Positions 7,950 through 29,399 of a DNA stretch of 53,999 bases are shown piece by piece. The notes under the pieces are model-generated. The model was not told where the DNA came from. It was given only the letters and a program-made list of their open reading frames with translations, and did no database searches. Position 1 is the stretch's first letter, and every line of letters begins with the position of its first letter. The stretch spans positions 1-53,999 of the forward strand of contig JAAURJ010000016.1 of assembly GCA_012032285.1 (NCBI GenBank). The letters are read 5' to 3'. Both the position numbers and the translations under genes were made by a program. The stretch is from Sphingomonadales bacterium (GTDB lineage: Bacteria; Pseudomonadota; Alphaproteobacteria; Sphingomonadales; Sphingomonadaceae).

Positions 7950-8024
7950 AAGTTTACAAAGTTTACACCAAGGAGGCTATATTTTCGGCCATTCTGGCCT
8001 GATTTTGTAGGGTTTATCCTACAA
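7950..8024 (+). repeat. Interspersed element, copy A
   Basis: Starts with a tandem AAGTTTACA AAGTTTACA followed by CCAAGGAGGCTATATTTT, then two potential hairpins: GGCCA-TTC-TGGCC (7987-7999) and TTGTAGG-GTTTAT-CCTACAA (8005-8024). The same element occurs at 23604-23675 (minus) and 28693-28767 (plus). It lies between the convergent gene ending at 7891 and hom, in the orientation of the former. No coding potential; terminator, RNA element or miniature mobile repeat are all possible. Confidence 0.85.
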
Positions 8025-8035
8025 GCACAGGCGGC

Positions 8036-9379
8036 TTATTCGCCCAATATATGCATCACCATCGGTTCGCCCAGCATTGAATCCGATCCCGATAATGCCG
8101 CCAATGTCTGTGTAATCGCCTGTTCCTGTCCGGCATGGGTAACCATAGCGATCAGGGCGCTGCCATCCTCATTCGCCTCTTGCTGGATCAGGCTTTCGAT
8201 CGAAAGGCCCGCATCGCGCATCGCGGCGGTAATTTCGGCAAGCACGCCGGGTTTATCCGCGACCAGCATCCGCAAATAGGTTTTGCCCACCCGGTGCCCG
8301 CTGGGCGCGGGCGGCAATTTGTCCAGCATTTCGCCCGGCATGGCAAAGGCAGGACCGGTTTCACCTCGCGCAATATCCACAAGGTCGGCAACCACCGACG
8401 AAGCGGTTGGCTTGTCGCCTGCACCGGCACCCTGAAACAAAAGCCGCCCGGAAAAATTACCCTCAGCCACCACCGCATTGGTTGGCCCTGTCACATGGGC
8501 GAGTGGGTGGCTGGTGCGCACCAAATAGGGGTGAACGCGCTGAAACAGGCTGGCATTGCCGTTGCTGCCGTCCACTTCGGCTAGGCCGAGCAAGCGGATG
8601 CGGTAACCCAGCGCCTTGGTCTGCGCGATGTCAGCAGCCATGATTTTGCGGATACCGCCTATTTCCACCGCGCCGAAATCCAATTGGGTGCCAAAGGACA
8701 GCGACGCCAATATCGCCAGCTTATGTGCGGCATCGACGCCGTCAATGTCAAAAGCGGGATCGGCCTCGGCAAAGCCTTTATCCTGCGCGTCTTTCAAGAC
8801 ATCGGCAAAATCGCGTCCATGCTTTTCCATCGCCGAAAGGATATAGTTGCAGGTGCCGTTCAATATCCCGTAAACCCGTTCTATCCGGTTGGCGGCCGCG
8901 CCTTCGCGCAGGCCCTTAATCACCGGAATCCCGCCCGCCACGGCGGCCTCATATTTAAGAGCCAGCCCTTTGGTTTCGGCCAAAGTGGCCAGTTCTAGGC
9001 CGTGATGCGCGACCATCGCCTTATTGGCGGTGACAAAAGATTTCCCGCTGCCCAAGGATTCGCGGGCAAGCGTGAGCGCCGGACCATCCGATCCGCCGAT
9101 CAGTTCGACGACGACATCGACATCATCGGCACCGGCCATCGCGGTCATATCATCCATCCAGCGATAGGGAGACAGGTCCACGCCCCGGTCCTTACCGCGT
9201 TCCCGCGCGGTTACCGCGATAATTTCGATGGACCGTCCGGCACGGCGGGTGATGATGTCGCGGTTCGCCTCAATCAACTGGATCACGCCAACACCCACGG
9301 TGCCAAGGCCAGCCAAGGCAATACGCAAAGGACGGGTGCTTTGGGGGCCGGTGTTTTGTGGATCGGGGTTCTGGGACAT
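8036..9379 (-). CDS. hom: Homoserine dehydrogenase
   Basis: Reduces aspartate semialdehyde to homoserine for threonine and methionine synthesis. The 447-residue protein has an N-terminal Rossmann motif LAGLGTVGVGV (about 23-33), the catalytic/substrate region GILNGTCNYIL and AFDIDGVDAAHKLAILA, and a C-terminal ACT domain (about 370-447, with DKPGVLAEITAAMRDAGLSI) for feedback regulation by an amino acid. Length and domain order are those of monofunctional Hom. It heads the hom/glpX/recJ neighbourhood. The 217 bases upstream hold a short palindromic repeat but no riboswitch I could recognise. Confidence 0.97.
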   Translation of the reverse strand: MSQNPDPQNTGPQSTRPLRIALAGLGTVGVGVIQLIEANRDIITRRAGRSIEIIAVTARERGKDRGVDLSPYRWMDDMTAMAGADDVDVVVELIGGSDGPALTLARESLGSGKSFVTANKAMVAHHGLELATLAETKGLALKYEAAVAGGIPVIKGLREGAAANRIERVYGILNGTCNYILSAMEKHGRDFADVLKDAQDKGFAEADPAFDIDGVDAAHKLAILASLSFGTQLDFGAVEIGGIRKIMAADIAQTKALGYRIRLLGLAEVDGSNGNASLFQRVHPYLVRTSHPLAHVTGPTNAVVAEGNFSGRLLFQGAGAGDKPTASSVVADLVDIARGETGPAFAMPGEMLDKLPPAPSGHRVGKTYLRMLVADKPGVLAEITAAMRDAGLSIESLIQQEANEDGSALIAMVTHAGQEQAITQTLAALSGSDSMLGEPMVMHILGE

Positions 9380-9524
9380 GATACAGGCTTTCCGGCTTTT
9401 GTAATTTATGGCTTCGAAACGCCGCTGCGCCTAATGCAAAATTACGCTTATGGCTAGGGGTGAAACACTGCCATGCTATATAAAATCCCTTAATCCCTAA
9501 CCCGGTGCAGGCGAGCCTGGCCTG

Positions 9525-9565
9525 CCAACCCGGCTTCGACAAGCTCAGCCTGAGCGCGGGGTTGG
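9525..9565. repeat. REP-like palindromic repeat
   Basis: Nested inverted repeat: outer CCAACCC (9525-9531) with GGGTTGG (9559-9565) and inner GCTCAG-C-CTGAGC (9543-9555). The central CTTCGACAAGCTCAGCCTGAG is a motif that recurs between genes in many sphingomonad and other bacterial genomes. It lies between hom and the DUF1176 gene (intergenic 9380-9596). Confidence 0.7.
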
Positions 9566-9596
9566 GAAAATACCCCATATTAGGATGCACTGTATT

Positions 9597-10658
9597 TTAC
9601 GCGCCAAATTCGACCTTGGCTCTCCAAACGGTTATCCAATCGAGGGAGCCGCGGCATTCCTCCATGCGCCGGGCGCGGATCAGGCGGAACATTTCCCCGT
9701 CCCAGACATAATCGGCGCTTTGCCCACAATCGCCAAACCCGCGCCCCTTATTATAGCTGGTCAGGCTTTGTGTTTCCGGGTTCCAATCTGCGTTGATCAA
9801 TATTTCGATTTGCGCCGCTTCACTGGCCGTATCGCTGCGATAGTCAAAACGGGCGGGCAGAAAGCTCCAATAACCGTCCGCGCTGCGTGTGCCGATATAG
9901 GGGGCGCTGCCAAAATTATACGCGCCGCTGCCGCAGCTGACGAGGACCAACGCCTGCGCTTTGCCATCATGGCTGCCCAGACTATAGGCCGAATCTTCTG
10001 TAACGCCGTAGCGTTCCTCCTTGCACGCGCTATTTTCGATCAGCGTGACAAGGTCGGCGGCGGGCGGGACAATATCATCGGGGGTGATTTTCCGGGCGGC
10101 GATAACCGGCAAGGCGGGTTTCCCCAATTTGGCTTTTTTCCGGCCCGTAGCCGCGATGGCGTCTGCGGTCCTTGCCCGGCCCTGTGCGCTGTCCAAATAA
10201 CGCAATGCCGCAGCAGAACCTGTGAGCGATATTTTTCCCATGATGACATCATTACCATCATACAGCACCGCTTCCCGTCCGCGCACGACCGCACGGGCCA
10301 GCTTCATCGCGTCCTTTCCGGTGACGGTAATGGACGCATTGTCATCTTGGACGATTGGGCCAGTATCGACCAATTCCCCGTCAATAAACAGTCGGTATCG
10401 ATCGCTTTCGCTGTCAAAATCGAATATCTGAACAGTCAAATCACCGTCATTTCCGGCGTCACGCTTAATAATCATCGACAGATTGTCAGCCGGAATATCG
10501 GGTGGCAATAACGACACCGCTTCACAGGAAAGCGCATTATCACAGCCCGACGCCCAATTTTTGAAATAATAGGTTTCGCCTAGGTCCACCGACGCATAAG
10601 CGGGCATCGCCGTGGCGGCGCAAACGCATAAAATGATCTGGCCAATCATTCTCGACAT
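9597..10658 (-). CDS. DUF1176 domain secreted protein
   Basis: 353 residues starting with a signal peptide (MSRMIGQIILCVCAATAMPA, cleavage near YAS). The body matches the DUF1176 layout: an N-terminal jelly-roll-like half starting FKNWASGCDNALSCEA, a central Pro/Lys linker, and a C-terminal half ending in GFGDCGQSADYVWDGEMF and a Trp-rich tail. Paired cysteines (CDNALSC, DCGQS..EEC) suggest periplasmic disulfides. The role of DUF1176 proteins is not established. It stands alone, divergent from the hydroxyacyl-CoA dehydrogenase gene. Confidence 0.85.
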   Translation of the reverse strand: MSRMIGQIILCVCAATAMPAYASVDLGETYYFKNWASGCDNALSCEAVSLLPPDIPADNLSMIIKRDAGNDGDLTVQIFDFDSESDRYRLFIDGELVDTGPIVQDDNASITVTGKDAMKLARAVVRGREAVLYDGNDVIMGKISLTGSAAALRYLDSAQGRARTADAIAATGRKKAKLGKPALPVIAARKITPDDIVPPAADLVTLIENSACKEERYGVTEDSAYSLGSHDGKAQALVLVSCGSGAYNFGSAPYIGTRSADGYWSFLPARFDYRSDTASEAAQIEILINADWNPETQSLTSYNKGRGFGDCGQSADYVWDGEMFRLIRARRMEECRGSLDWITVWRAKVEFGA

Positions 10659-10729
10659 GGATGCAGGCTAGTCCTTTTGTGCCCGCTAGGCTAGAGGCAA
10701 GTTGAATTTGATCAATTGGGAGACCGGAT

Positions 10730-11598
10730 ATGCGGGCAGTGGCAGTGATTGGTGCAGGACAAATGGGGGCAGGGATCGCGCAGGTCAGCGCACAGGCCGG
10801 TTATCATGTTTATCTGTCCGATATTGATCTGTCCCGTGCAGAGGCAGGTAAGACGGGCATTGCCACAGCGCTTAAAAAACTGGCCGATAAGGACAAAATC
10901 AGCGAATCCGAAGCGGCGACCGCATTGGACCGGATAGAGGCTGTGGCAAGCTATGAACCCATGGCGGGTGCGGACCTGATCATCGAAGCGGCCACCGAAC
11001 GCGAAGAGATTAAGCGCAAAATTTTTGAAGATGTCGGCAAGGTTTTGGGGCATCAGGCCGTGCTGGCCTCCAATACCAGTTCCATCCCCATCACCCGCCT
11101 GGCGCAGGCATCGCCGGACCCGGCCCGGTTTATCGGCGTGCATTTTTTCAATCCGGTTCCAGTTATGGGATTGATCGAGGTGATCCGCGGCCTTGCGACA
11201 TCAGACGGCACGGTGGCGAAAATTAACGATTATGGCGAGGCGCTGGGCAAGCGGATGGTGTTCGCCAATGACGCGCCGGGCTTCATCGTCAACCGTATCC
11301 TGCTGCCTATGCTGAACGAGGCTTGCTTTGCGCTGGGCGAAGGGGTGGCGACAATCACCGATATTGATACCGCAGTGCAGATGGGACTTAATCACCCCAT
11401 GGGCCGCTTACGCTCGCCGATTTTATCGGGCTGGATACCTGTCTGGAAATCACCAATGTTCTGCACAGCAGCACCGGCGATCCCAAATACCGCCCCGCCC
11501 CGCTTTTGCAAAAATATGTCGAAGCGGGCTGGCTGGGCCGCAAGTCAAAGCGCGGATTTTATGATTATACCGGCGATGCACCGGTGCCGACGCGGTGA
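10730..11598 (+). CDS. 3-hydroxybutyryl-CoA dehydrogenase family protein (frameshifted near C-terminus)
   Basis: NAD-dependent oxidation of 3-hydroxyacyl-CoA in beta-oxidation or butanoate metabolism. The N-terminus has the Rossmann motif [11 protein letters not shown] (about 7-17); [15 protein letters not shown] and [19 protein letters not shown] are the conserved catalytic His and helical signatures. At 11404-11405 the frame breaks after NHPMG; one added C (GGCC to GGCCC) restores [16 protein letters not shown] and the normal end [14 protein letters not shown] with stop at 11596-11598, total 289 residues as usual for the family. Without the repair a spurious tail runs to 11602. ATG 10730 follows a GGAGA site. 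Confidence 0.93.
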
Positions 11599-11617
11599 AT
11601 AGATGACATCAATAAAA

Positions 11618-11644
11618 AAGGGGACGCTATAACAGCGTCCCCTT
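11618..11644 (-). terminator. Intrinsic terminator between hbd and the TonB receptor gene
   Basis: Perfect 11-bp stem AAGGGGACGCT (11618-11628) / AGCGTCCCCTT (11634-11644) with loop ATAAC. On the minus strand the stem is followed by a T-run (A-run at 11614-11619 on plus), so it terminates the receptor gene; it may also act on the converging dehydrogenase transcript. Confidence 0.85.
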
Positions 11645-11668
11645 AATGCGACCCGGGCTAATGCCGGA

Positions 11669-14600
11669 TTAGAACTTCACACTGATCCCACCAGTAATGC
11701 GGCGGTCGGTAAGTCCTTGGAAGCATAATACCGCATTATTGTTGACGCAGAATAACCGTTGGTCACCGCGCAGCAGGTTAATGCCTTCCACACCGATGTT
11801 GATATTATCGGTAATGTCATAGTTGATGCTGGCATTCAGCTGTCCGCGCTCTCCGGCAATCAGGGGCAGGTTCCAGCGGAATTGTTGGTTGCCGGCATCC
11901 AGCGCATAGCTGGAACGCCATGTATAGCGCAAACGGGCGTTCAGGCCATATTTGTCATAAAAAAGCGTGGCGTTATAAGCATATTGCGACAGGTTGGCCA
12001 GTGGCGCCACATTGGACAATGAACCGCGTGTAAAACCAAGCGCTACATCCGTGTTCCGTCCGACATCCAAAGCCGCGAAGTTAAATGCCTTTGCCCCGCC
12101 GACTTTTTGATAGGTGAAATTGCCGATCACACCAAAACCGGAAGCGAAACCGATTGCATCTTCATAAGCCGAAAGATCATGCTGGAACGCGACTTCAACA
12201 CCGGTTTGAGTGGTCGAACCCGGCACGTTGAATTTGGATTGCAGACCTTGGCAAATACCATTGCCAGCAGTCAAGCTGAACAGATTGCGGTCGGGAAGCG
12301 GGTTGAAAATCCCGCCGCCAGGGCAATCGCGATCAATCGAATAAAGTGGGCCGTTGGTATTGGGGTTCACACCAATGGCAGGCGCTGGCTCGACTGTATC
12401 GGCAAACAGGTTGGTCCGTATTTTGTGGAAGAAGCCGACGCTGATCAGGCTGGCCGGGGAGAAATAATATTCGCCCGAAAGGTCGAATGACCACACTGCC
12501 TCCGGCACCAAATTCGGGTTGCCGCCTGTTGTCACGCCGGTTGCTGAACCGGAATAAGAAAGCGATGTCGACAAATCGTCAAAATCGGGACGACGAATAT
12601 CTCTTGCTATGCCTGTTCGCACGATGACATTCTTGGCTGGTTCCAAAACCAGATTAAACCGAGGCAAGAGGAAATTATAATTTGATTCCCGAACAATTTG
12701 ATCTGTTACAGCGCCATTTTGGACATTGTTACCCGTTGAGCGGAGCTTCGTTGACAACCAGCGAAGGCCGATATTGCCGCGGGCGTCCATACCAAAGATA
12801 TTGCCTTCGCCATTGGCTTGAAAATAGGCAGCATTGGTGGTTTCCTTAATGCTGAAAAATCCAAGCACCGACTCGGTCGGCTCCGCTAGTTGCGGGACAG
12901 CGGGAAATTGCGGGTTGGCCGTGTTGCTGGCGGTGATGGCGGCATTGAGCGCGGCCAATACCCCCGCGGGATCATTAAAGGATTGGGTCCCGTCGATGAT
13001 CAGGAAGTCGGAGAAAAACAAGGACCGCCCGTCGGCCGCGTTGAAATTGCTGGGCGCGGCGACCAACAAATCCGCAAATAAATTGCCCTCAGGCCGGTTG
13101 AACCGGTTGGCCGACGCGCTTGATGAATTGGATGTCAGGCTTATATTGTTAACAAAATCATTGTTCACCGCACTGGTTTCGTTCCAGCGATAACCGAAAT
13201 CAACCGATGTGATGAAGGGGTTTAGGTCGGTTGTGTCATAGGTGAAATCAATCCTTACCGCCTTTTCCTCATTATCCGACCTGTTGGCGCTTTGCTGTAC
13301 CTGCTGCAGTTGATAATTTGCAGGATCAAGCAATTGTGCAGTCGTTGGTGCCAGCGGGTTGGATGTATCGATTCCAGCCTGCAGCATCCCGTTGCGCAAA
13401 TCAAAGGCAACCGGGCTAGCATTGTCCAAGGTTCCGCGTCCGAAAATAGGCTGAACCCCATTGGGGTTGATGAAATCCAATGTCGTTGAGAAATTCGGGT
13501 TTACGGTCTTTGCTGTCGATAATGCGGCTTCGGCACTAATCGTCAGCTTCTCGCCCTCCCATTCAAAACCGGCATTGTAAATCCGGCTTTTTGTGACGCG
13601 CGACCCTGTGTCGCTCGACATACGCAAATTCGGGTCCAGTGTGCCGCCGCTTGCCCCTACAACGCCAATTGTGCCGCCAATGCTTGTTTGAATAGTGCCC
13701 AAATTGACGGTGCCGGTTGGGGTTTCCAATGTTCCCAGATTGATGGTTTCAAACCCGATATGGTTGGCTGTGTTAACGGCACCTGAAGTGCCCGACACCT
13801 GAACCCGGTTGCCGTCCTGACGGCGTTCCTGGTCACTGATTGTAGCGTCAAAATACAGCTTCAGATTATCGGACGGTTTCCATTCCAGCGCAGCGGTGCC
13901 GGTTTTGGTTTCATAATTAAAACGGTCCACTTCCTGTTGCAGGAACTGTATTTGCAGATAGTTGAAATTCTGGTTCGCATTGCTCCCCGGCAAATTTGCG
14001 GCGCTCGACGCCAGCCGTGCGTTGTCACGGTCGATACGCGGGGCAAATTGTGCGACTTCTGTGCGGCTATAGCTGCCGCCCAAAACGATACCGATTTCCC
14101 CAATGCCAGTATCCCATTTATTGCCAATTGTTGCCGATATGCGGGGCAGAGTAGATTCGGCAAGGTCGCTATTTTCATATTGCACACGCGCGGCAATAAG
14201 CGGCTCTGATAGCGAAAGCGGACGGATTGTCCTCAGATTGATGGTGCCGCCAACCGATCCTTCGATCGTTTTGGCTTCGGATACCTTTGTAACTTCTACC
14301 GAACCGATAATTGCTGCTGGAATATCTTCAAAGCTGATACCGGACCGGCCTGCTCCTGAACCAACGGTCGATACTCCGTTAATTTCGGTCCGGTTGGCAT
14401 CGGTGCCGCGGATTTGAACGGTCGTGCCGACGCCGGCGTCGCGCGTGATTTGAATGCCGGTCACATTTTCAAGAACTTCGGCCAGATTCTGGTCGGGAAG
14501 CTTACCAATATCCTCTGCCTGGATCACCTCGACCAAATTGTCGGACGCCCGTTTTTCGCCAAGCGCCGATTCGAGCGAGCTACGAATACCGCTGACCACA

Positions 14601-14746
14601 ATGACATTGTCATCATCAGATACCGCTTCATCCGCATTTTGCGCATAAGCAGGGGCCGCGCCAATAGTCAGCGCCGTTCCCGCCAGCAGCAGCGCAAGCA
14701 AACGACGCGAATCCCGGCCAGACATATTTATAGCGTATTTTGTCAT
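11669..14746 (-). CDS. TonB-dependent receptor, TonB-Xanth-Caul type
   Basis: Outer-membrane ligand-gated transporter of 1025 residues energised by TonB. ATG 14746 follows GGGAGG at seven bases. A signal peptide ends near APAYAQ (about 36). The plug domain contains SGIRSSLESALGEKRASDN, EDIGKLPDQNLAE and the RGTDANRTEINGV segment, all characteristic of the TonB-Xanth-Caul subfamily, which in Caulobacter and Xanthomonas is tied to carbohydrate uptake. The beta-barrel ends in the outer-membrane signature ISVKF with C-terminal Phe. The frame is intact over 3 kb. No sugar-utilisation genes flank it, so the substrate is open. A 12-bp palindrome 82 bases upstream could bind a LacI-type repressor. 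Confidence 0.95.
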   Translation of the reverse strand: MTKYAINMSGRDSRRLLALLLAGTALTIGAAPAYAQNADEAVSDDDNVIVVSGIRSSLESALGEKRASDNLVEVIQAEDIGKLPDQNLAEVLENVTGIQITRDAGVGTTVQIRGTDANRTEINGVSTVGSGAGRSGISFEDIPAAIIGSVEVTKVSEAKTIEGSVGGTINLRTIRPLSLSEPLIAARVQYENSDLAESTLPRISATIGNKWDTGIGEIGIVLGGSYSRTEVAQFAPRIDRDNARLASSAANLPGSNANQNFNYLQIQFLQQEVDRFNYETKTGTAALEWKPSDNLKLYFDATISDQERRQDGNRVQVSGTSGAVNTANHIGFETINLGTLETPTGTVNLGTIQTSIGGTIGVVGASGGTLDPNLRMSSDTGSRVTKSRIYNAGFEWEGEKLTISAEAALSTAKTVNPNFSTTLDFINPNGVQPIFGRGTLDNASPVAFDLRNGMLQAGIDTSNPLAPTTAQLLDPANYQLQQVQQSANRSDNEEKAVRIDFTYDTTDLNPFITSVDFGYRWNETSAVNNDFVNNISLTSNSSSASANRFNRPEGNLFADLLVAAPSNFNAADGRSLFFSDFLIIDGTQSFNDPAGVLAALNAAITASNTANPQFPAVPQLAEPTESVLGFFSIKETTNAAYFQANGEGNIFGMDARGNIGLRWLSTKLRSTGNNVQNGAVTDQIVRESNYNFLLPRFNLVLEPAKNVIVRTGIARDIRRPDFDDLSTSLSYSGSATGVTTGGNPNLVPEAVWSFDLSGEYYFSPASLISVGFFHKIRTNLFADTVEPAPAIGVNPNTNGPLYSIDRDCPGGGIFNPLPDRNLFSLTAGNGICQGLQSKFNVPGSTTQTGVEVAFQHDLSAYEDAIGFASGFGVIGNFTYQKVGGAKAFNFAALDVGRNTDVALGFTRGSLSNVAPLANLSQYAYNATLFYDKYGLNARLRYTWRSSYALDAGNQQFRWNLPLIAGERGQLNASINYDITDNINIGVEGINLLRGDQRLFCVNNNAVLCFQGLTDRRITGGISVKF

Positions 14747-15076
14747 TGATATTCCTCCCAAACTCTCTCGAAATCACACTCCAAAGTAGATTTTTGGTAG
14801 CGTGTTATGATAGCGGTGACCGAAAAAGACACCGGTGTCAATATGCTTTTCATCTGTTTGTGCGCCAGCAATCTGGAATAGTCAACCAATAAACATTACC
14901 AATTATGCCAATAATCAAAATTTATGTCATACCAATCATAGGAACCGCATGACAGGAAGCGGCCTATGTCATGACCCCTTATCGCAAATTCGCTTCCCAA
15001 GCGTTGCCCACAAAAAGCTATAAGCAGCGCAGAGAGGAAGCGCGGTGCAATCGCTCTATAAAAATACATTGAAATT
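14747..15076. other. 330-base intergenic region: receptor leader and tRNA flank
   Basis: AT-rich upstream region of the TonB receptor. It holds the GACACCGGTGTC palindrome at 14828-14839 and a TTGACA hexamer overlapping it on the minus strand. The half towards tRNA-Arg (14900-15076) shows no credible coding frame; short open frames here lack ribosome binding sites. Confidence 0.6.
14828..14839. promoter_or_regulatory. Operator-like palindrome upstream of the TonB receptor
   Basis: GACACCGGTGTC is a perfect 12-bp palindrome with a central CG, the form of LacI/GalR-family operators. It sits 82 bases before the receptor start and overlaps TTGACA read on the minus strand, so a repressor bound here could block a promoter. 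Regulation is an inference; no regulator gene lies nearby. Confidence 0.5.
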
Positions 15077-15153
15077 TGGCGCGCCCTGCAGGAGTCGAAC
15101 CTGCGGCCTCAAGATTAGAAGTCTCGCGCTCTATCCAGCTGAGCTAAGGGCGC
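15077..15153 (-). tRNA. tRNA-Arg (anticodon TCT), CCA encoded
   Basis: Read on minus: acceptor GCGCCCT pairs with AGGGCGC, discriminator G then encoded CCA (15079-15077). D arm TAGCTCAGCTGGATAGAGC, anticodon loop CTTCTAA giving TCT, T arm GCAGGTTCGACTCCTGC. All are standard for tRNA-Arg reading AGA. Confidence 0.96.
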
Positions 15154-15180
15154 GCACCGTGGATGCCAATAACCGCTTTA

Positions 15181-15198
15181 CGGCTTTAAGCAAAGCCG
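15181..15198 (+). promoter_or_regulatory. Stable hairpin in the leader of the queuosine-precursor transporter gene
   Basis: CGGCTTT-AAGC-AAAGCCG is a perfect seven-bp stem with a four-base loop ending 14 bases before ATG 15213. It could influence translation of the transporter or terminate a plus-strand transcript, though no T-run follows. It does not match a preQ1 riboswitch consensus that I know. Confidence 0.3.
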
Positions 15199-15212
15199 GT
15201 TATGTGACAAAA

Positions 15213-15953
15213 ATGACCATGCCGATCACAAAAGCGACAATAGCCAATGAAACCGCGGATCGGCGGTTCTTATATTATGATTTTATCATGGCGGCTTTTG
15301 TGGCGATTTTGCTGCTGTCTAATATCATCGGCGCGTCGAAACGGTCGGAGGTGGTTTTGCCGGTCATCGGCGAATGGTCATTCGGCGCGGGCGTGCTGTT
15401 TTTCCCGATTAGCTATATTATTGGCGATGTCCTGACCGAGGTATATGGCTATGCCCGGGCGCGGCGGGTGATATGGACGGGTTTTGCCGCGTTAATCTTC
15501 ATGGCGTTTATGAGCTGGGTTGTGGTGGCATTGCCCCCCGCCGAAGGATGGCCGTTTCAAAAGGATTATGAAAATGTGTTCGGCAATAGCTGGCGCATTG
15601 TGTTGGCGTCGATTGCCGCTTTTTGGGCGGGCGAATTTGCCAATAGCTTTGTGATGGCTAGGATGAAGATTTGGACGAAAGGCAAGGCGCTGTGGACGCG
15701 CACAATCGGATCGACCATCGTGGGGCAGGGGCTGGACAGCCTTATTTTCTACCCGCTGGCCTTTTGGGGTTTGGCGGGCTGGCCGGTGGAACAGATTTGG
15801 CAGGTGGTTGTTTCCCAATTCCTGATCAAGACGCTGTGGGAGGCGCTGTTGACCCCTGTGACCTATGCGGTGGTCGGATTCCTGAAACGGCGGGAGGGTG
15901 TGGATATATTTGACGAGGGCACGGATTTCTCACCATTTAAGGCGAAGCTTTGA
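15213..15953 (+). CDS. yhhQ: Queuosine precursor transporter, VUT/YhhQ family
   Basis: Inner-membrane importer of the queuosine precursor (7-cyano-7-deazaguanine in E. coli YhhQ) for tRNA modification. The 246-residue product has about six membrane segments; the family signature NIIGASKRSEVV, FPISYIIGDVLTEVYGY and GQGLDSLIFYPLAF are all present. I start at ATG 15213; GTG 15204 and ATG 15219 are alternatives, none with a strong ribosome site. The longer open frame reaching back to 15045 is an artefact of reading through tRNA-Arg. Its stop overlaps the TTG start of the next gene (TTGA). Confidence 0.9.
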   Translation: MTMPITKATIANETADRRFLYYDFIMAAFVAILLLSNIIGASKRSEVVLPVIGEWSFGAGVLFFPISYIIGDVLTEVYGYARARRVIWTGFAALIFMAFMSWVVVALPPAEGWPFQKDYENVFGNSWRIVLASIAAFWAGEFANSFVMARMKIWTKGKALWTRTIGSTIVGQGLDSLIFYPLAFWGLAGWPVEQIWQVVVSQFLIKTLWEALLTPVTYAVVGFLKRREGVDIFDEGTDFSPFKAKL

Positions 15954-21329: not shown

Positions 21330-22115
21330 ATGACGATTGATCTTAATCTGTTGCTGCGCGCTTATGCGTCGGGCTATTTCCCAATGTCCGATGCGCGGGA
21401 TGATCCCGATATATATTGGGTGGAGCCGAAAAAACGCGCGATATTTCCGCTAGATGGCCTCCATATTTCCAAATCCCTGGCAAAGGTGATCAAAAAGGAT
21501 CGGTTCCGCCTTACCGCCGATACTGTTTTTGCCGATGTCATCGCGCACTGTGCCGAAGCGGCGGCGGACCGCGACGACACCTGGATTAACGCGCAGATTG
21601 AAGACGCCTTTATCCGCCTGCATCAATTGGGCCATGCACATAGCGTCGAATGCTGGATTGATGAGGATGGGGAATCGCGGCTGGTTGGCGGGTTATATGG
21701 CTTATCTCTGGGCCGTGCCTTTTTTGGCGAAAGTATGTTTTCGCGGACGGATAATGCGTCCAAGGTTGCACTGGTCTGGCTCGCGGCGCGGCTCCGTCTG
21801 GGCGGATATCAGCTGCTCGATTGTCAGTTTATGACCGGTCATCTGGCGAGCTTAGGCGCAGTGGAAATATCGCAAAAGCAGTATCTGCAAAAACTGGCAT
21901 CGGCCCTGTCGCTGGGTAATGCCGATACGGCGAATCAGGTTGCGGTGACGGCTTCTTCTGCGGACGGCGCGTTTTCTTCATCCTCTGATGGTGCGGCTTC
22001 CTGGTCAGCATTGGACGGTTTACTGGACGCTGCGGAAGGTGAATCGGATTTCTCTGGAGCCGCTTCTTCCTCTCCGGGGAAGCTCATTCTACATTCCTTG
22101 ACCCAGACATCATAA
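21330..22115 (+). CDS. aat: Leucyl/phenylalanyl-tRNA--protein transferase
   Basis: Transfers Leu or Phe to proteins with N-terminal Lys/Arg, marking them for ClpAP degradation (N-degron pathway). Core motifs: [19 protein letters not shown] at the start, [40 protein letters not shown], and [16 protein letters not shown]. 261 residues: the core ends near 200 and a Ser/Ala-rich linker leads to a C-terminal [13 protein letters not shown]. This tail lies wholly inside the antisense DUF2155 gene (181-bp overlap). Similar tails occur in sphingomonad Aat proteins as I recall them, so the overlap is probably real and conserved. Confidence 0.95.
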
Positions 22116-22579
22116 ATTTGATGCTGGACCACATTGGCGGCCGGATTTTCCTTGAACAACCAGCCGGAAAATACCTGACGCCAGCGTTCGGATTGGTTGG
22201 TACCGGGCGGGCGTTCGTTAACGATCACCTGCACAAAGGCCCCTTGATCGGGATAATTTTCCCATGGCGCGGTTTTTTCGCAGGCACGCAAACGAATAAC
22301 AACCTTGCCAATGCGAATATCCTGACCGGGTTTCAATTCAATATCGCGGGTATCGCCATTGCGTTTATTGAGCAGGCCCAAAACCGCAACCCGTTCCGCC
22401 ATTGGTGTGCCGATCGATTCTTCGGCGGGTTTGACCATCTTGTCTGCGCTTGCCCTTGGCTTTTCCGTGGCTTTGGAGGCAGATTTTTGTCCTGCGACTT
22501 CGGCGCTGTCATCGCCGCTGCCACAGCTTGCCAGCACGCCAAATAGCGCGGCCGCAATAAAGGCTTTACGCCGGATCAT
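21935..22579 (-). CDS. DUF2155 lipoprotein
   Basis: 214 residues with a lipobox leader (AALFGVLASCGSGDD), so probably a periplasm-facing lipoprotein. DUF2155 core from about 85 to 170: [51 protein letters not shown]. The C-terminal 40 residues are low-complexity (Ser, Ala, Glu) and are encoded antisense to the aat tail. Its ATG overlaps the stop of the NDUFA12 gene (TAATG), so the two are coupled. Function of DUF2155 is not established. Confidence 0.85.
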   Translation of the reverse strand: MIRRKAFIAAALFGVLASCGSGDDSAEVAGQKSASKATEKPRASADKMVKPAEESIGTPMAERVAVLGLLNKRNGDTRDIELKPGQDIRIGKVVIRLRACEKTAPWENYPDQGAFVQVIVNERPPGTNQSERWRQVFSGWLFKENPAANVVQHQIYDVWVKECRMSFPGEEEAAPEKSDSPSAASSKPSNADQEAAPSEDEENAPSAEEAVTAT

Positions 22580-22962
22580 TATTCACCCGGACTCCATGCC
22601 TCATAATCGCCGGTTGCCCGTGCCCGTTTGCTCGATGATTCCAATGCTCCAGCGGGCCGGTATGCGGCGGACGTTCCGGTTAAATTGCCGGTTGCGCCCT
22701 GTTCCCAGCCGCGCACCGGCGGCAGATAATCTTCGGGATTGCCATCATGCGTGCCGTGCAGCCAGCCATGCCAGTCGGGCGAAATCCGGCTGGCATCATT
22801 GGGGCCGTTATAAATGACCCAGCGGCGGCTGCCATCTTTGGAATGATAATAGACATTGCCCGCTTCGTCGCTTCCGGCTTTGACGCCGTTGCGCGCACTG
22901 AACAACAATGTGCCGATTGTGGCACCGTCCCACCATGTAAATATCTTTGCTAATATACCCAT
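22579..22962 (-). CDS. NADH:ubiquinone oxidoreductase accessory subunit NDUFA12
   Basis: 127 residues matching the 17.2-kDa (B17.2/NDUFA12) supernumerary subunit of complex I, shared by alphaproteobacteria and mitochondria. Motifs: IFTWWDGATIGTLLF, GNVYYHSKDGSRRWVIYNG, ISPDWHGWLHGTHDGNPED. It presumably binds the peripheral arm of complex I. Co-transcribed with the DUF2155 gene. The nuo genes are not in the window. Confidence 0.95.
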   Translation of the reverse strand: MGILAKIFTWWDGATIGTLLFSARNGVKAGSDEAGNVYYHSKDGSRRWVIYNGPNDASRISPDWHGWLHGTHDGNPEDYLPPVRGWEQGATGNLTGTSAAYRPAGALESSSKRARATGDYEAWSPGE

Positions 22963-23044
22963 GATTGCCGATTAAGCGTTCCTGTTTGCCCGTGCAATGA
23001 AAAAGGTCAAATTTTTATAAGGTCATTTATGCAATGACGGCGCG

Positions 23045-23551
23045 TTACCAAGATATGGTGTCACCCGCCTTTATTCCCAATTCGGACGTTAAGCCGCCGC
23101 GCAGTTCCAACACCGCCTGTACGCTTCCTTTTGAAGAAACGGTGTCGAGCGAATAGGGCACGGCATTTTCACCAATACTTTCAATTGTGCCGTCGGCCCC
23201 GATAAAGATAATGTCGAGCGGGATTACGGTATTTTTCATCCAGAAACTGGCAGGCCGCGCCTGCGGAAAGGGAAATATCATCCCGGCATCGTCGGCAAGC
23301 GAACGCCGGAACATCAACCCTTGTGCCTGTTGTGGCCCGGTGGCGGCGATTTCTGCGGTAAAGCTGTGCGTTTTTTTGCCGCTTTTGATGCATAATCGGG
23401 TGAGGTTAAGCCCCGCTTCGGACTGGCCCAATGGCGTGCCTGCAGTGCATCCGGTTTTTTTTCCCGCATTATTACCTGCCATCGCTCCGCCGGGCATATT
23501 GCAGGCGGTCATAGCAAGGGTAAGGGCGGTCAGCAGCAGTAGGCGCATCAT
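23045..23551 (-). CDS. DUF192 lipoprotein
   Basis: Start at ATG 23551 (MMRLLLLTALTLAMTACNM) follows GGAAG at five bases; ATG 23563 is an alternative. The leader carries a lipobox (MTAC). DUF192 core from about 55: VEIAATGPQQAQGLMFRR-like segment reads TAEIAATGPQQAQGLMFRR, then ADDAGMIFPF, ASFWMKNTVIPLDIIFI and VLELRGGLTSELGI, a full-length small beta-rich domain. Function unknown. The minus copy of the interspersed repeat lies immediately upstream, between this gene and the DUF2807 gene. Confidence 0.9.
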   Translation of the reverse strand: MMRLLLLTALTLAMTACNMPGGAMAGNNAGKKTGCTAGTPLGQSEAGLNLTRLCIKSGKKTHSFTAEIAATGPQQAQGLMFRRSLADDAGMIFPFPQARPASFWMKNTVIPLDIIFIGADGTIESIGENAVPYSLDTVSSKGSVQAVLELRGGLTSELGIKAGDTISW

Positions 23552-23603
23552 TCTTGCTTCCATATAAATAGTCGGGTCTTTGGCTTCCGGTTCATTATCA
23601 TTG

Positions 23604-23675
23604 TTGGAATTATCCTACAATTCCAATCAAAAGTGGCGGAAAAAAAGGCTTCCTTGGTGTAAACTTTGTAAACTT
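23604..23675 (-). repeat. Interspersed element, copy C
   Basis: On the minus strand it begins AAGTTTACAAAGTTTACACC at 23675, 20 bases after the stop of the DUF2807 gene, and continues AAGGAAGCC. Over its first 28 bases it is identical to copy B. It ends in an inverted repeat TTGGAATT-GTAGGAT-AATTCCAA (23626-23604), replacing the hairpins of copies A and B but keeping a GTAGGAT motif. Confidence 0.85.
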
Positions 23676-23695
23676 AGCAGGCGGGCAAGGCAGGC

Positions 23696-24415
23696 CTAAT
23701 CCTCTTTAGGGCATTGGATCGCTGCATTGCCTGCCCGGCGGATCAGGCATTCAGCGGTGCCGGTGATGGTGATATTGCCCGATCCCTGACTGCTGATGGT
23801 CGCGGATTCCTCTGCCTGCGCAATGATTTTGGCATTGCCGTTCAGATCAAGGCTGATCTTGCGGCTCGCCACATTGGCAAGATCAATCCGCGGCGAACCT
23901 TCAATACTCAGCGTGGTTTCGCGGGCGGTGCCGTCATTCAACGCCACCTCGCCTGTACCAAATATATTGACGAACAAACGGTCCACCTTCATCCGGTCCA
24001 CATTGATGCTGCCGCCGCCATTCAAATAAAGGCGGGTATTGCCGGGGCGGTCGATGGCATTGATCTTTATACTGCCATTGCCGGTCAGGGCGACATTGCG
24101 AACCTGCAGCGTCGTCAGCGTTACCACCAACGGCTCGCTCACACGAACACCGACTTCGTTATTCGGCGGGCGCTGCACCCGGATGGTGAGCGTATCGGAT
24201 GTGTGGTCGAGTTTCAGCAGGTCCAATATCCGCCGGTCGCCGCTGGCCCGCCCCGAAGATCCTTTGCCGGTGGTGATCACAACACGGATATCGCCATCAA
24301 CCACCAGATCCTGAAACCCGCTGACCAGCAATTTCCGGCTTTCCGCCTGTGCGTGCTGCGCTGTTGAAACAGCGAACAAGAATGCGGCGGCCACAATAAA
24401 TGCCCGGTAAATCAT
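23696..24415 (-). CDS. Secreted DUF2807 (GIN domain) beta-helix-like protein
   Basis: 239 residues with signal peptide (MIYRAFIVAAAFLFAVSTAQ, cleavage near AQA). The rest is a repetitive beta-rich fold with runs such as VRNVALTGNGSIKINAID, TRLYLNGGGSINVDRM, LFVNIFGTGEVALNDGT and KISLDLNGNAKIIAQAEES, the pattern of DUF2807 domains, once called auto-transporter adhesin head GIN domains. It ends with a Cys pair (AECLI, IQCPKED). Periplasmic or surface role unknown. Confidence 0.88.
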   Translation of the reverse strand: MIYRAFIVAAAFLFAVSTAQHAQAESRKLLVSGFQDLVVDGDIRVVITTGKGSSGRASGDRRILDLLKLDHTSDTLTIRVQRPPNNEVGVRVSEPLVVTLTTLQVRNVALTGNGSIKINAIDRPGNTRLYLNGGGSINVDRMKVDRLFVNIFGTGEVALNDGTARETTLSIEGSPRIDLANVASRKISLDLNGNAKIIAQAEESATISSQGSGNITITGTAECLIRRAGNAAIQCPKED

Positions 24416-24512
24416 TACTTATCCAACCCCCGTCCGATGATACGGTTTGATGCTATGTGCATCAAATCTCCTTCGATGAAAAGTTATTACCGCTAGCCCT
24501 CTGTTTACAGGC

Positions 24513-24542
24513 AAAAAAGAGCGCCCAGCAGGCGCTCTTTTT
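24513..24542 (-). terminator. Intrinsic terminator of carD (bidirectional)
   Basis: Perfect 12-bp palindromic arms AAAAAGAGCGCC / GGCGCTCTTTTT with loop CAGCA; on the minus strand the GC stem is followed by T-run, 23 bases after the carD stop. Confidence 0.9.
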
Positions 24543-24564
24543 CGGTCATTTGAACAGGGCAAGC

Positions 24565-25092
24565 TTATTCAGGCTTGTCATAATATTGCGGTGCAGCCTC
24601 ATTCAGGACATTGAGGATTTTCTGCAGCGCGGCCGGCTCATCGGTTTTTTCCATCGCGGCCAATTCACGGGCCAAACGGCTGGAGGCGGCTTCAAAAATC
24701 TGCCGCTCGGAATAGCTTTGCTCTGGCTGATCATCGGGTCGGAACAAGTCGCGGGTCACTTCGGCAATGGAAACTAGGTCGCCCGAATTGATCTTTGCTT
24801 CATATTCCTGCGCCCGGCGTGACCACATGGTGCGTTTCACCTTGGGCTTGCCAGTCAGCGTGGTCATCGCTTCTTTTAGCGTCTTGTCCGAAGATAATTT
24901 ACGCATTCCTACACCTTCCGCCTTGTTGAACGGAACGCGCAGGGTCATTTTTTCTTTTTCAAACCGCAGCACATATAGCTCAAGCTGCATACCGGCGATT
25001 TCGCTGTTTTGCAGCTCGATAACACGGCCAACGCCATGTTTGGGATAGACGACATAATCGCCAACTTCAAAGGACACCGCTGAGGACGTCAT
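24565..25092 (-). CDS. carD: CarD family transcriptional regulator
   Basis: Binds the RNA polymerase beta subunit and promoter DNA to stabilise open complexes. I start at ATG 25092, giving 175 residues beginning MTSSAVSFEVGDYVVYPKHG; an upstream extension lacks support. The N-terminal Tudor-like RNAP-interaction domain (about 8-65, VGRVIELQ, MTLRVPF) and the C-terminal helical domain with KRTMWSRRAQEYEAKINSGD are typical. Alphaproteobacterial CarD is linked to rRNA transcription and stress. It has its own terminator. Confidence 0.95.
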   Translation of the reverse strand: MTSSAVSFEVGDYVVYPKHGVGRVIELQNSEIAGMQLELYVLRFEKEKMTLRVPFNKAEGVGMRKLSSDKTLKEAMTTLTGKPKVKRTMWSRRAQEYEAKINSGDLVSIAEVTRDLFRPDDQPEQSYSERQIFEAASSRLARELAAMEKTDEPAALQKILNVLNEAAPQYYDKPE

Positions 25093-25333
25093 AAATATGG
25101 ACCCTTTCTGGAAAATACTTTTTTTGGAGATTGTAAGGCGCACAGTGTCTGTTTGCGCCTGTTGATATGAAACATCTCCTGTCTGCATCATACGGGTTAT
25201 ACCGACATGACGAGTTGGCCTAAAATTAAGCCGGAATGGTATTTATACCAGATTCGTTCGGAAATTTCAAATTTACTTTGCTGTCAGTAAATTATGACAT
25301 AAAAATGAATTATATCAAAATTCTACAAACAAA

Positions 25334-25850
25334 CTACATATGGCCGATCTTGCGCACATTATTTGATGCACTATCGCCGAAAGCGGAGCCGGGCGCTTTA
25401 ATTTCACTCGCGTCAAGCCAGCACAGATCCCTTGGTCCCAAAACCTTATCGTCATGGCTCCTTATTGTGACAGGCAAAATCGGCTGCTGGTCCTTTTCAT
25501 CAACCAGTACCGGGTTAGAAATAATGCCGGTTCCCCATTTTCGCCCCACTGACGCAGCGCAATCATTGCCGGCAAAGGTCCAGTCCCTTTTCGGTAAGGC
25601 GATATTCAACCTTGCGCCGATCATCGGGGCAAGGGGTGCGGTGTAAAATCCCGGCCTCGGTCAATTTTGTCAACCTGTTGGCCAATATATTACGCGCAAT
25701 ACTGATTTCCGACAGGAAATCTTCGAAATGATAAATACCGTTGAAAGAGGCCCGCAAAATCATAAAGGACCATCTTTCTCCCATCGCTTCCAAAGCATTG
25801 GGCAGGCCGCAATCATCGATGTCTTTTAGCGATTCTCTCAACTTGCCCAT
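25334..25850 (-). CDS. HxlR-type winged-helix regulator (two frameshifts)
   Basis: The first frame from ATG 25850 reads an HxlR DNA-binding domain: CGLPNALEAMGERWSFMILR (Cys near residue 14), FEDFLSEISIARNILANRL and RRKVEYRLTEKGLDL. It breaks at 25574-25576; one added T on the coding strand gives LLPAMIALRQWGE, and one added A at 25538-25541 gives KWGTGIISNP and continues to the stop at 25334, total about 172 residues. The C-terminal extension is longer than many HxlR proteins. Such regulators often sense redox or aromatic ligands through the N-terminal Cys. It is divergent from a small secreted-protein gene. Confidence 0.82.
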
Positions 25851-26000
25851 ATAACCTCCTTCTTACCATCTAAAGCGAACGGCGTGCAAAAATCAAAAAA
25901 AATATCAGTTTTAAGTTGCAACTTAAAATCGAATCGTATAGGTAGTTTTTGCAACTTAATTGCAAATATGGTTTTGCCAATGAATATAAGGAATATGAAG

Positions 26001-26375
26001 ATGACCCTCTCCCACTTTTCATCTCGTTTGGGCGCTATGGTTGGCGCTGTTTTGATCAGCTTCACATTAGTTTTTGTCGCGCCGCAAGCCCATGCCGCAA
26101 AGCGTGATGCCAATTTTTATAATATTGAGTTGATTCAGAATAACCCCATAGAAAAACAGCGCGTTAAAGGCGTTACCGTAAAGTGCACAGACGGTGAATG
26201 CACCGCACCGCTGGCCAGCACAGCACATAAAAATATGTGTATTGCCGTGGTCAAGCAATTTGGCGCGGTCAAATCCTTTGGGGCCGGTGGACGCCAGTTT
26301 GATGATCAGGAAATCAGCAGTTGCAATGCAAAAGGCGGTGCAGCGGAGCAACCAGATTTAGCCAAAGCCAGATAA
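26001..26375 (+). CDS. Small secreted protein, CC_3452-like
   Basis: I choose ATG 26001 since AAGGA lies eight bases upstream. 124 residues: signal peptide MTLSHFSSRLGAMVGAVLIS, cleavage after AHA near residue 32, then a short domain with CTDGEC and CIAVVKQFGAVKSFGAGGRQFD..EISSCN. The paired Cys and the AVKSFGAGGRQFD segment recall the CC_3452 family of alphaproteobacterial secreted proteins, assigned tentatively. Divergent from the HxlR regulator across a 150-base AT-rich gap, so it may be that regulator's target. Confidence 0.65.
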   Translation: MTLSHFSSRLGAMVGAVLISFTLVFVAPQAHAAKRDANFYNIELIQNNPIEKQRVKGVTVKCTDGECTAPLASTAHKNMCIAVVKQFGAVKSFGAGGRQFDDQEISSCNAKGGAAEQPDLAKAR

Positions 26376-26564
26376 TATCGCTTAATATATTTTCCGGTTC
26401 TGCTCTCCTCACCCCCTGATGCATTCCGGTATTTGGGCCGGGATGCCCTCAAACAGAATCGGAAAAACACCCTGCGCGGTCCGTCATCTGCATCTTGATG
26501 CAAAAACGACGGTTCCGGCGCATTTTTTTGTTGCAACATCGCGCATTTATCCCAAGCTAGGCAT

Positions 26565-28669
26565 ATGATGCGGCAATATGAATTGGTGGACCGGGTGCGT
26601 GCCTATACGCCCGATGTCGATGAGGACCGGCTGAACCGGGCTTATGTGTATACTGTGCAGATGCACGGCAGCCAAAAACGCGCAAGTGGTGACCCTTATT
26701 TCAGCCATCCTGTGGAGGTTGCGGGGTTGATGACCGATTTGAAGATGGATGAGGAAACCATCATCACCGCGCTGCTGCACGATACGGTCGAAGATACGCT
26801 GACCACGATTGAAGATGTCGAGATCAAATTTGGCAGCGAGGTGGCGCAGCTGGTCGATGGTGTGACCAAATTGTCAAAGATTGAGGCGCAGACTGAGGAT
26901 GAACGGGCGGCGGAAAACCTGCGAAAATTCCTGCTAGCTATTTCAAACGACATCCGTGTGCTGCTGGTCAAATTGGCTGACCGGCTGCACAATATGCGCA
27001 CCTTGCACTATATTAAGAGCGAGGAGAAACGCCGCCGTATCGCCAAGGAGACGATGGACATATATGCCCCGCTGGCCGAACGGATCGGTATGTATGAATA
27101 TATGCGCGAAATGCAGCTTCTGGCCTTTGAGCAATTGGAGCCTGAAGCTTATGAGACGATTATCAGGCGGTTAAAACATATCCGTGATAATGCCGAAACT
27201 AGTCTGGATACGATTAATCAAGGTATCAGCAAAGAGATGCAGCGCCACGGGTTGAAAGTCGCTGTTTCGGGCCGGGAGAAGCACCCCTATTCGATTTGGC
27301 GCAAGATGCAGGAACGCCACGTCGCCTTTGACCAGCTATCGGATATTAACGCCTTTCGCATCATCACCGAAAATCCGGAGGATTGCTATTGGGCGCTGGG
27401 CGTGCTGCACCGTAAATGGCAAATGGTGCCGGGACGGTTCAAGGATTTCATCTCCACGCCAAAGCGCAACGGATACCGGTCGATCCACACCACCATATTG
27501 TTTGCGCAGAATATGCGGGTAGAGGTGCAGATACGCAGCAAGGCGATGCATGAGGCCTCCGAATTCGGACTGGCGGCACACTGGGCCTATAAACAGCATG
27601 ACGCCGCCGATGGGCAAGCGGGCTGGATCCGCGATTTGATCGAGATTTTGGACACCAGCCATGATGCCGAAGACCTGCTCGAAAATGCCCGTATGGCCAT
27701 GTATCATGACCGCATCTTTGCTTTTAGCCCCAAGGGCGCATTGCACCAATTTCCAAAGGGCGCAACGGCGGTAGATTTCGCCTATGCCGTGCATACCGAT
27801 TTGGGTGACAAGACGGTCGGGGCAAAGATTAACGGCCGTCATGTGCCGCTGCGCACACAGCTGTCCAATGGCGACATGGTCGAGATATTGAAAAGCGCCG
27901 CACAGGAGCCGCAGGCCAATTGGCTTAACTTTGTGGTCACCGGCAAAGCGCGGGCCGCCATTCGCCGTCATGTCCGCTTTCAGGAGCGCGATGAGCTGAT
28001 CGCTATTGGGCGGGAGCTTTATGATGAGGTGGTGCAGCGTTCGCCGATCAAGATTGGCAAAAAAGCGCTCGATGCGGCGGCAGACCGCCTTGGTTATGAT
28101 GGCGAAGAGGATTTGATGCACGCCGTTGGCACCGGAAAAGTGAATGATAAGCAGCTTATCAAGGCGCTGGTTCCCGGCCTATGATCCCGATCGATGATGG
28201 CAGCGAATGGACCAGCCAGGAACGGGCGATATCGATCCGTGGCCTGACGCCTGGCATGGGCTATCATCTTGGCGATTGCTGCCACCCGGTTCCGGGCGAC
28301 CGGATTGTTGGCCTGCGCATATCCGGGCAACCGGTGGAGGTGCATACGATTGAATGCGACCGGCTGGCCAGCGGCACCGATATTGACTGGGTCGATTTAA
28401 GCTGGGGGCAGGATAGCGACGGAGCGGCGGCGCGGGTGCGTGTCATCGTCCATAACCGTCCCGGCACTTTGGGTGAAATTGCGGGTATATTCGGGTTTCA
28501 AAAAGCCAATATCCTCAACCTGCGTTTGACAACAAGGGATCAGCAATTCCACACTTATGAAGCCGATTTGGAGGTGCATGACCTGCAACATTTGATGCGT
28601 ATCATTTCCGGCCTGCGCGCGTCTGAAGCGGTGGCGCAGGCGACCGGGTTTATGAATGAAGACGGCTGA
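26565..28669 (+). CDS. rsh: Rsh bifunctional (p)ppGpp synthetase/hydrolase (frameshifted)
   Basis: Makes and degrades the alarmone (p)ppGpp in the stringent and general stress response. Domains in order: HD hydrolase (FSHPVEVAG near 46-54, LLHDTVEDT near 71-79), synthetase (IWRKMQERHVAFDQLSDINAFRII, KDFISTPKRNGYRSIHTT), TGS (FAFSPKGALHQFPKGATAVDFAY) and, after the break, a Cys/His conserved GYHLGDCCHPVPGDRIVGL and ACT domain (HNRPGTLGEIAGIFG). The frame breaks around 28174-28180; one added C in the GGCC run joins the parts into about 700 residues, the normal length. Read literally it would be two proteins with a four-base ATGA overlap; I favour one gene. Confidence 0.93.
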
Positions 28670-29399
28670 TTATCCGCAACCGGCCCGATCCTAAGTTTAC
28701 AAAGTTTACACCAAGGAAGCTATATTTTGGGCCATTTATTCCCGATTTTGTGAGGTTTTGTCCTACAGATTGATAAAAGGCCTCTTCCTCTTTTTCGTTC
28801 AGCAACAGATTTTTGAAATCATCCGGATGCATCAATTTATGCGGGTCGGCCGGGCATTGCGGCTCCAATCCATCGATCAATGCGGCAACGGGCGTTCCTA
28901 GCGCTGTATCATCCAGTGAGAAATCTGTTTGCAGTTGATCCCTATGGGCATAATCCGGGCTGCCGATACGTTCTTGCCCGTAATGTTTCAAAAGGAACAT
29001 CAACAGCCGGTCATTATACCGCTTTTTGGTGTAGATATGATTGCCTTCACGGTCCAAAATGAAATCTTCAACACCATTGATTGCGCGGTCAAAGGCGATA
29101 TCGATCAACTGTCTGCTGGCCTGTTCAATCGCGGCATCCCACGCGGCGGCAAATCGTTCCGCACCGGGCGACCGGCGCAGCTTGTAACAGGCCATGCGCG
29201 ACATTCCGCAAGCCTGCGCCGCAGTGGTCACAGAGCCGCTATCTGCCAAAGCTTCGATGAACTGCCGCTGGCATTGCGGGGTCCATCCATCGCTTCGGCG
29301 GCGCTTGGCAACGGGTATCCATTCATAATCATTGGGATTAAAACCATTGCTATCAAGGGCAGTGGTTTTGGCGGATGGGGGGATATTTGGATTTTTCAT
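28650..29399 (-). CDS. HTH-like protein with repeat-derived C-terminal tail
   Basis: 249 residues. The region 35-140 (WTPQCQRQFIEALADSGSVT, AAQACGMSRMACYKLRRSPG, RYNDRLLMFLLKHYG) is a helix-turn-helix layout known from uncharacterised sphingomonad proteins that resemble phage small-terminase DNA-binding domains. A Pro-rich acidic tail follows. The last ~38 residues (from SVGQNLTKSGINGPK onward) are the antisense translation of interspersed element copy B and then of the rsh 3' end, so the native C-terminus was probably near FYQ. Overlaps rsh tail to tail by 20 bases. Function unknown; DNA binding is inferred. Confidence 0.7.
   Translation of the reverse strand: MKNPNIPPSAKTTALDSNGFNPNDYEWIPVAKRRRSDGWTPQCQRQFIEALADSGSVTTAAQACGMSRMACYKLRRSPGAERFAAAWDAAIEQASRQLIDIAFDRAINGVEDFILDREGNHIYTKKRYNDRLLMFLLKHYGQERIGSPDYAHRDQLQTDFSLDDTALGTPVAALIDGLEPQCPADPHKLMHPDDFKNLLLNEKEEEAFYQSVGQNLTKSGINGPKYSFLGVNFVNLGSGRLRIISRLHS
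28693..28767 (+). repeat. Interspersed element, copy B
   Basis: Begins AAGTTTACAAAGTTTACACC 24 bases after the rsh stop, continues AAGGAAGCTATATTTTGGGCC as in copy A, then GGG..CCC and an imperfect TGTGAGG..TCCTACA hairpin. It lies inside the 3' coding end of the convergent HTH-like gene. Confidence 0.85.

Follow-up and report, generated by a model that had tools for sequence, protein, structure and literature searches.

What keeps the opening bases of a short repeat almost unchanged behind three genes of one contig, while the sequence that follows them drifts? The repeat lies in a stretch of 53,999 nucleotides (nt) from a Sphingomonadales bacterium (GenBank assembly GCA_012032285.1, contig JAAURJ010000016.1, positions 1 to 53,999; hereafter the window), and an earlier sequence-only reading had placed three explanations side by side: a mobile miniature element, an RNA element of the 3′ untranslated region (3′-UTR), and a protein-binding tandem site. 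The analysis reported here leads us to favor, as probable by a narrow measure, a lineage-private, non-autonomous repeat of 74 bp that resembles repetitive extragenic palindromes (REPs) and miniature inverted-repeat transposable elements (MITEs), is moved in trans, has two ends read by protein, and has a head that is also kept in place. The observation behind the sequence-only reading is thereby confirmed and its interpretation partly supported. Its three copies, here called A, B and C, exist, and each carries exactly the described head, namely two AAGTTTACA units followed by CCAAGGARGC. The heads of copies B and C are identical over 28 of 28 bases, that of copy A differs at position 26 only, and the copies lie 58, 20 and 23 nt past a stop codon, in the sense of that gene. 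The tails had been assigned the wrong way round: TATATTTT and the GGCC stretch are common to copies A and C, and the TTGGAATT...AATTCCAA repeat is found in copy B.

The genome as a whole (G000; 2.78 Mb in 96 contigs, 97% complete) contains 18 full copies distributed over 16 contigs, plus two head-only copies. Full copies measure 73–75 bp, and 14 of them exactly 74 bp. They follow one plan: a head of 25–28 bp (the two AAGTTTACA units, CC and AAGGARGC), a middle of about 28 bp that mostly opens with a run of T, and an 18-bp tail palindrome, TGTnGGA-N4-TCCnACA, which is diverged in copy C. The 18-mer AAGTTTACAAAGTTTACA occurs exactly at 19 sites (10 forward, 9 reverse), as against none for its reversed control, far more than chance would give, and the longer head TAAGTTTACAAAGTTTACACCAAG, sought with up to three mismatches, at 20. 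Because all 20 heads lie within one mismatch although three were allowed, the family is bimodal, with heads either intact or absent altogether. Eighteen of these heads open a full element; the remaining two, C29 (in L013) and C86 (in L111), have no recognizable tail and were therefore excluded from the 18-copy alignment and every count made on it, C29 still being matched by the element model over positions 1–57. Copies were found through the head, with independent searches for the tail serving as a check. A tail search allowing three mismatches returned 14 sites, every one inside the 18 elements, and a search for the tail palindrome with up to two mismatches returned 27, of which 17 fall in 17 of the 18 elements and 10 lie elsewhere (reversed control, 10). 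A full-length profile search of the genome brought in C86 as well as some weak partial matches, in a design that would miss copies decayed at both ends. The window copies score model E-values of 5e-24 to 8e-19, all three being part of the model.

Changes are distributed unevenly along the element. Counted by parsimony on a neighbor-joining tree of the middle and tail of the 18 copies, the head shows no change in its first 25 columns and three in columns 26–28, whereas the middle shows 77 changes in 28 columns, 51 of them on terminal branches; at the middle's rate, about 69 changes would be expected in the head. The tail is likewise divided, with one change in the 11 columns of its half-sites and 15 in its other seven. 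Pairwise, middles differ by 34% on average (4–57%) and tails by 13%. A frozen head and frozen half-sites on either side of a drifting middle support ends that are read by protein, in line with the protein-binding site considered at the outset. That the head is also retained in place is suggested by copies whose middles have long private branches and whose heads are nonetheless intact, and by the two tailless copies, whose heads stand at one mismatch.

Placement in the genome is uneven as well. Neighboring genes were called with a simple codon-usage script, and background gaps come from the loci that hold the copies. Every one of the 18 full copies is positioned behind a gene, so the fixed 3′ position first noticed in three copies holds for the family. 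Twelve occupy convergent gaps, six co-directional gaps (five in sense and one, in L015, antisense) and none a divergent gap; copy C is counted as convergent because the open reading frame (ORF) 28650–29399 lies on the other strand. By comparison, the 74 gaps of 30 bp or more without an element comprise 14 convergent, 38 co-directional and 22 divergent ones. The convergent excess by count (12/18 versus 14/74) gives p ~1e-5, and the absence of all 18 from divergent gaps, which hold 35% of gap bases, gives p ~4e-4 by length. The proposed orientation in the sense of the upstream gene is borne out by five of the six co-directional copies, fails in the sixth and cannot be read from the 12 convergent ones; it carries little weight, since in a convergent gap either orientation follows a gene. 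Coordinates in the relative G031 suggest a wide spread of copies.

Some copies adjoin genes closely. Copy A ends 12 nt ahead of the 3′ end of a homoserine dehydrogenase gene, copy C sits within the 3′ end of ORF 28650–29399 (−), the L022 copy is read through by the preceding ORF, and in L009 and L021 the first bases of the element complete the stop codon. Several neighbors look frameshifted in the assembly; the ORF-end readings for L022 and copy C are provisional, and some gene-to-copy distances (by inspection, L017 and L024) are probably overestimates owing to apparent frameshifts. The conserved gene for an RSH stringent-response enzyme is split into overlapping ORFs in different frames (window 26565–28184 and 28181–28669, +), as are the likewise conserved genes for a RamB-like regulator (L111 2103–2966 and 2888–3496) and a ScyB-like dehydrogenase (L013 1871–2662 and 2419–2931). 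These splits are perhaps assembly frameshifts, which would also blur some gene ends. The neighbors themselves look ordinary and unrelated, with Pfam matches to homoserine dehydrogenase, RSH, DUF192 and DUF2807 proteins.

Relatives appear to be devoid of the repeat. A model search with stricter filters found no full-length match in any of 44 same-genus genomes, 29 of which gave weak partial matches at E ≤ 1 (best E 0.004, over 28 positions), and AAGTTTACACCAAGGARGC at up to two mismatches occurs at one site in each of three of 60 relatives. Among GTDB genomes, from which records close to this genome may be excluded, the exact head 20-mer occurs four times, in unrelated organisms and before unrelated downstream sequence; judged by that context, these matches look like chance. 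An origin in a phage or plasmid was set aside, as the exact 20-mer is absent from viral contigs and a search of plasmids and phages with the L024 copy returned nothing. No published text containing the 18-mer or its complement was found, nor any on the element among the titles and abstract openings listed. The sequence-only reading had named, as grounds for doubt, a genome with three copies only and relatives with none; copies proved to be many here, and none was found in relatives.

Individual loci point the same way. Forty-nine stretches from relatives (122,563 bases), 29 of them from the RSH locus where copy C lies and 20 placed by chimera and isocitrate lyase searches, contain no model match at E ≤ 1; among the loci represented are 11 of the 18 that hold full copies (L022 with the downstream gene only) and that of C29. 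In relatives that keep both neighbors side by side and convergent, the distance from stop to stop could be measured. At the L014 locus it is 2 nt in G031, an overlap of 4 in G022 and an overlap of 32 in G061, against ~91 nt in G000; at the L010 locus it is an overlap of 4 in both G031 and G022, against ~206 nt. Other counterparts measure 4 and 70 nt (L023), 109 and 36 nt (L012) and 74 nt (L017). Because the relative stretches lack the element and counterpart gaps are short, the repeat is most simply taken as an insertion of this lineage, in keeping with the mobile miniature element among the initial explanations.

How, then, would it move? An enzyme acting in trans may recognize the tandem head together with the TGTnGGA-N4-TCCnACA tail and insert copies, which would persist mostly where no promoter is broken. 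Selection would also hold at least the head in place, where its likeliest role is that of a candidate site for a DNA-binding protein. The insertion sites show some regularity, namely G/C, C and T directly before the head and G at +3 on the right, and a loose test for target duplication gives a mean of 1.9 against 1.0 (sd 0.4) when permuted. When joined, the flanks fold with slightly more stability than simple shuffles (mean z −0.86), but inconsistently, and a structured target was therefore rejected.

Several results weigh against this proposal. Terminal inverted repeats were not found: flush matches occur in seven of 18 copies, and the best 12-base window is reached by 455 of 500 shuffles. 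The target duplications that the sequence-only reading had suggested seeking are flush in none of the 18. Matches to the Y1 transposase family PF01797 number zero in this genome at E ≤ 0.001 (five of 14 control genomes have them; this was the only transposase family sought). No two middles are identical, the smallest difference being 1 of 28, so recent movement is not proven, and the frozen head could instead reflect young copies from an old, diverse source. The 10 orphan tails comprise two with one mismatch and eight with two, the control count not being divided by mismatch. Seven of the full-copy loci lie outside the relative stretches, and empty sites could not be delimited exactly, DNA identity reaching 79% at best at the one locus compared. 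The genes adjoining full copies have no obvious common function. On these results two specific forms of the proposal were discarded: a classical MITE, as the ends are not inverted repeats; and a REP driven by a REP-associated tyrosine transposase (RAYT), given the lack of a Y1 match. An autonomous parent with the same ends looks doubtful, as orphan tails are at control level and head-only sites number just two.

Comparison with known families sharpens both the likeness and the difference. REP elements are small and extragenic, lie mostly in convergent or co-directional gaps behind coding regions, are in some cases private to a species, and often form families of 20–100 or fewer (PMC3733652). 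The present repeat shares this location and has GTAG at the foot of its tail in 16 of 18 copies. REPs of the GTAG/CGTC kind are marked, however, by a palindrome of 20–40 bp with an unpaired GTAG/CGTC tag and a stem of 5–13 bp (GTAG) or 8–9 bp (CGTC), whereas this repeat is a 74-bp sequence with a non-palindromic tandem head of 25 bp, its GTAG lies within the palindrome and its stem is interrupted in most copies; nor did a search for PF01797 supply a transposase gene of the kind associated with GTAG families. Bacterial MITEs (Correia/NEMIS, RUP, ERIC and RPE) are short, dispersed and sometimes read into ORFs (PMC2229807). All three traits recur here, along with relative loci lacking the element, but terminal inverted repeats, flush duplications and, in most copies, a long stem-loop do not. 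The CIR repeats of Caulobacter and Brucella are alphaproteobacterial and intergenic, about 110 bp long, lack terminal inverted repeats and carry a DNA motif (PMC2229807). The present repeat is also intergenic and without such termini; however, CIRs are marked by a GANTC site in a two-armed structure, whereas GANTC is found in none of its 18 copies and it has no two-armed consensus structure; it was found in one genome only, whereas CIRs are conserved between species. The element lacks defining marks of both REP and MITE families, and what it shares with them is that its copies are scattered, stand behind genes and are confined to one lineage.

The two head-only copies are both located upstream of genes. 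C86 sits between the genes for isocitrate lyase (NF005074, above cut-off) and the RamB-like regulator, whose two ORF pieces each match NCBIfam NF038139 below its cut-off; the regulator also gives an above-cut-off match to PF09856, the only one in the genome. C29 lies upstream of the ScyB-like dehydrogenase (pieces below cut-off). The isocitrate lyase is 80–84% identical to plasmid-borne enzymes of Microvirga, Sphingobium, Agrobacterium and Rhizobium. An isocitrate lyase match was present in 39 relatives, and the lyase stretch was fetched from 29; the regulator lies beside the lyase in 26 of these 29, and the head is absent from all 29 (best, 7 mismatches of 23), which dismissed the head as an ancestral RamB operator at this locus. 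When a two-site motif was fitted upstream of the regulator in the 26 relatives (L115, L119–L143), with two sites per sequence imposed, double boxes such as TTTTGTAATATTTGTTG and TTGTAATGTTGTAATAT were clear in most and weak in a few. G000 retains boxes of this kind upstream of its RamB-like gene, and they are probably the RamB operator of the genus. On the fitted matrix the head scores 3.6, against 10.7–11.1 for the best three sites of G000, and a score equal to or above the head's is reached at 20 of 107,970 window positions (presumably including the three copies).

The explanation that competes most directly, a purely selfish repeat, would have its ends frozen for movement alone, its copies young and derived from diverse lost sources, and no local role. 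Relative stretches without the element, placement as is typical for extragenic repeats and neighbors of no obvious shared function all agree with it, but the many middle changes on terminal branches, with none in the head, the two tailless copies whose heads have 1 mismatch in 24, and the lack of any head at 2–3 mismatches do not, and we consider it possible but doubtful. Another version, in which a mobile repeat bears the site of a host regulator or architectural protein, the head being an operator at 18 gene ends kept by selection, one protein marking convergent ends and the two stripped copies recruited as promoter control sites, appears unlikely. More doubtful still is that the head is an operator of the RamB/ScfR acetate regulator copied round the genome, as might be proposed from the positions of C86 and C29 and from the head core TGTAAACTTTGT, close to TGTAAAGTTTGT beside C86. 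In Paracoccus, RamB is reported to bind two near-identical boxes with an 18-bp spacer before glyoxylate-cycle genes (PMC10370305). C86 does stand at a glyoxylate-cycle promoter, but the head is a 9-bp tandem, that promoter's conserved boxes are different sequences nearby, the matrix score and the relative loci speak against it, and full copies lie behind genes, 12 of them between convergent ones. The similarity of the head to RamB boxes is weak, and the link between the two stays a lead.

A transcribed element behind the upstream gene, recognized by an RNA-binding protein or cleaved by a nuclease, would account for the 18 positions behind genes and for sense orientation in five of six co-directional copies. 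Its head also offers CAAGGANG, which fits the CsrA/RsmA motif CANGGANG, and head position 26, which varies, coincides with an N in that motif. Structure argues otherwise. The RNAalifold consensus retains the tail palindrome only, with no pair altered on both sides; a two-hairpin structure on the 18-copy alignment is not clearly above shuffles on any of five measures, and it beats its own slid versions on most (pairing 75.6% versus ≤43.8%), as expected of a structure drawn from these same sequences. An A-A mismatch interrupts the tail in 12 of 18 copies, and single copies fold at z below −2 in three (L009, L021 and L023) but not in the other 15. Covariation in the tail hairpin, another check suggested by the sequence-only reading, does not exceed shuffles, nor does that in the middle hairpin; the structured 3′ RNA tail is not upheld, and the tail may be better read as a two-fold symmetric protein site than as a conserved RNA hairpin. 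Rfam covariance models, in a scan that covered the window copies, returned only two tRNAs at gathering score. With the L015 copy antisense and both head-only copies upstream of genes, an RNA element seems improbable. A bidirectional intrinsic terminator between convergent genes, which we hold to be very improbable, would explain the strong preference for convergent gaps and draws on terminator-like hairpins in copy A, L023 (forward) and L021 (reverse). However, a simple, non-exhaustive scan, which missed the copy A hairpin, picked up tail hairpins with T behind them in just the latter two of 18 copies; in L020 and L017 a hairpin plus T6 already precedes the element; and the frozen head lies outside the consensus structure. 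A likely intrinsic terminator stands at L023 3041–3125, where flanking bases lengthen the tail palindrome to a long stem with six T behind it.

Table 1. Copies of the repeat and their parts in the window.
Feature	Position	Strand	Basis
Full element, copy A, 74 bp	7950..8023	+	Sequence and model match
Head of copy A, tandem AAGTTTACA AAGTTTACA CC AAGGAGGC	7950..7977	+	Sequence
Palindromic tail of copy A, TGTAGGGTTTATCCTACA	8006..8023	+	Sequence, tail-pattern search
Full element, copy B, 74 bp	23602..23675	-	Sequence and model match
Head of copy B	23648..23675	-	Sequence, head search
Palindromic tail of copy B, TGTAGGATAATTCCAACA	23602..23619	-	Sequence, tail-pattern search
Full element, copy C, 75 bp; reverse strand read through by ORF 28650-29399 (-)	28693..28767	+	Sequence and model match
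Head of copy C	28693..28720	+	Sequence, head search
Diverged tail of copy C, TGTGAGGTTTTGTCCTACA, missed by tail-pattern search	28749..28767	+	Sequence

Two other short sequences were noticed along the way. In the window, about 27 bases containing TAACCTATATGGTTA (29411–29437) lie upstream of ORF 28650–29399 (−); the stretch is near-identical in many same-genus genomes, several of which have more than one site, and it looks like a conserved operator. The relative G029 repeats a different stretch, AAACCGGTnCCCnCTTTTTCGCGCGATGC, twice (L052 1427–1472 and L115 3209–3254, the only two copies seen), at sites homologous to those of copy C, behind the RSH gene, and of C86, where isocitrate lyase and the RamB-like gene flank the gap.

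Small repeats are a common sight behind genes; what sets this one apart is the contrast between a frozen head and a drifting middle. A head of 25 bp held unchanged at 18 loci, next to middles that differ by a third on average, provides a handle for separating local function from the repeat's own movement, and a protein bound there, if found, would mark convergent gene ends.

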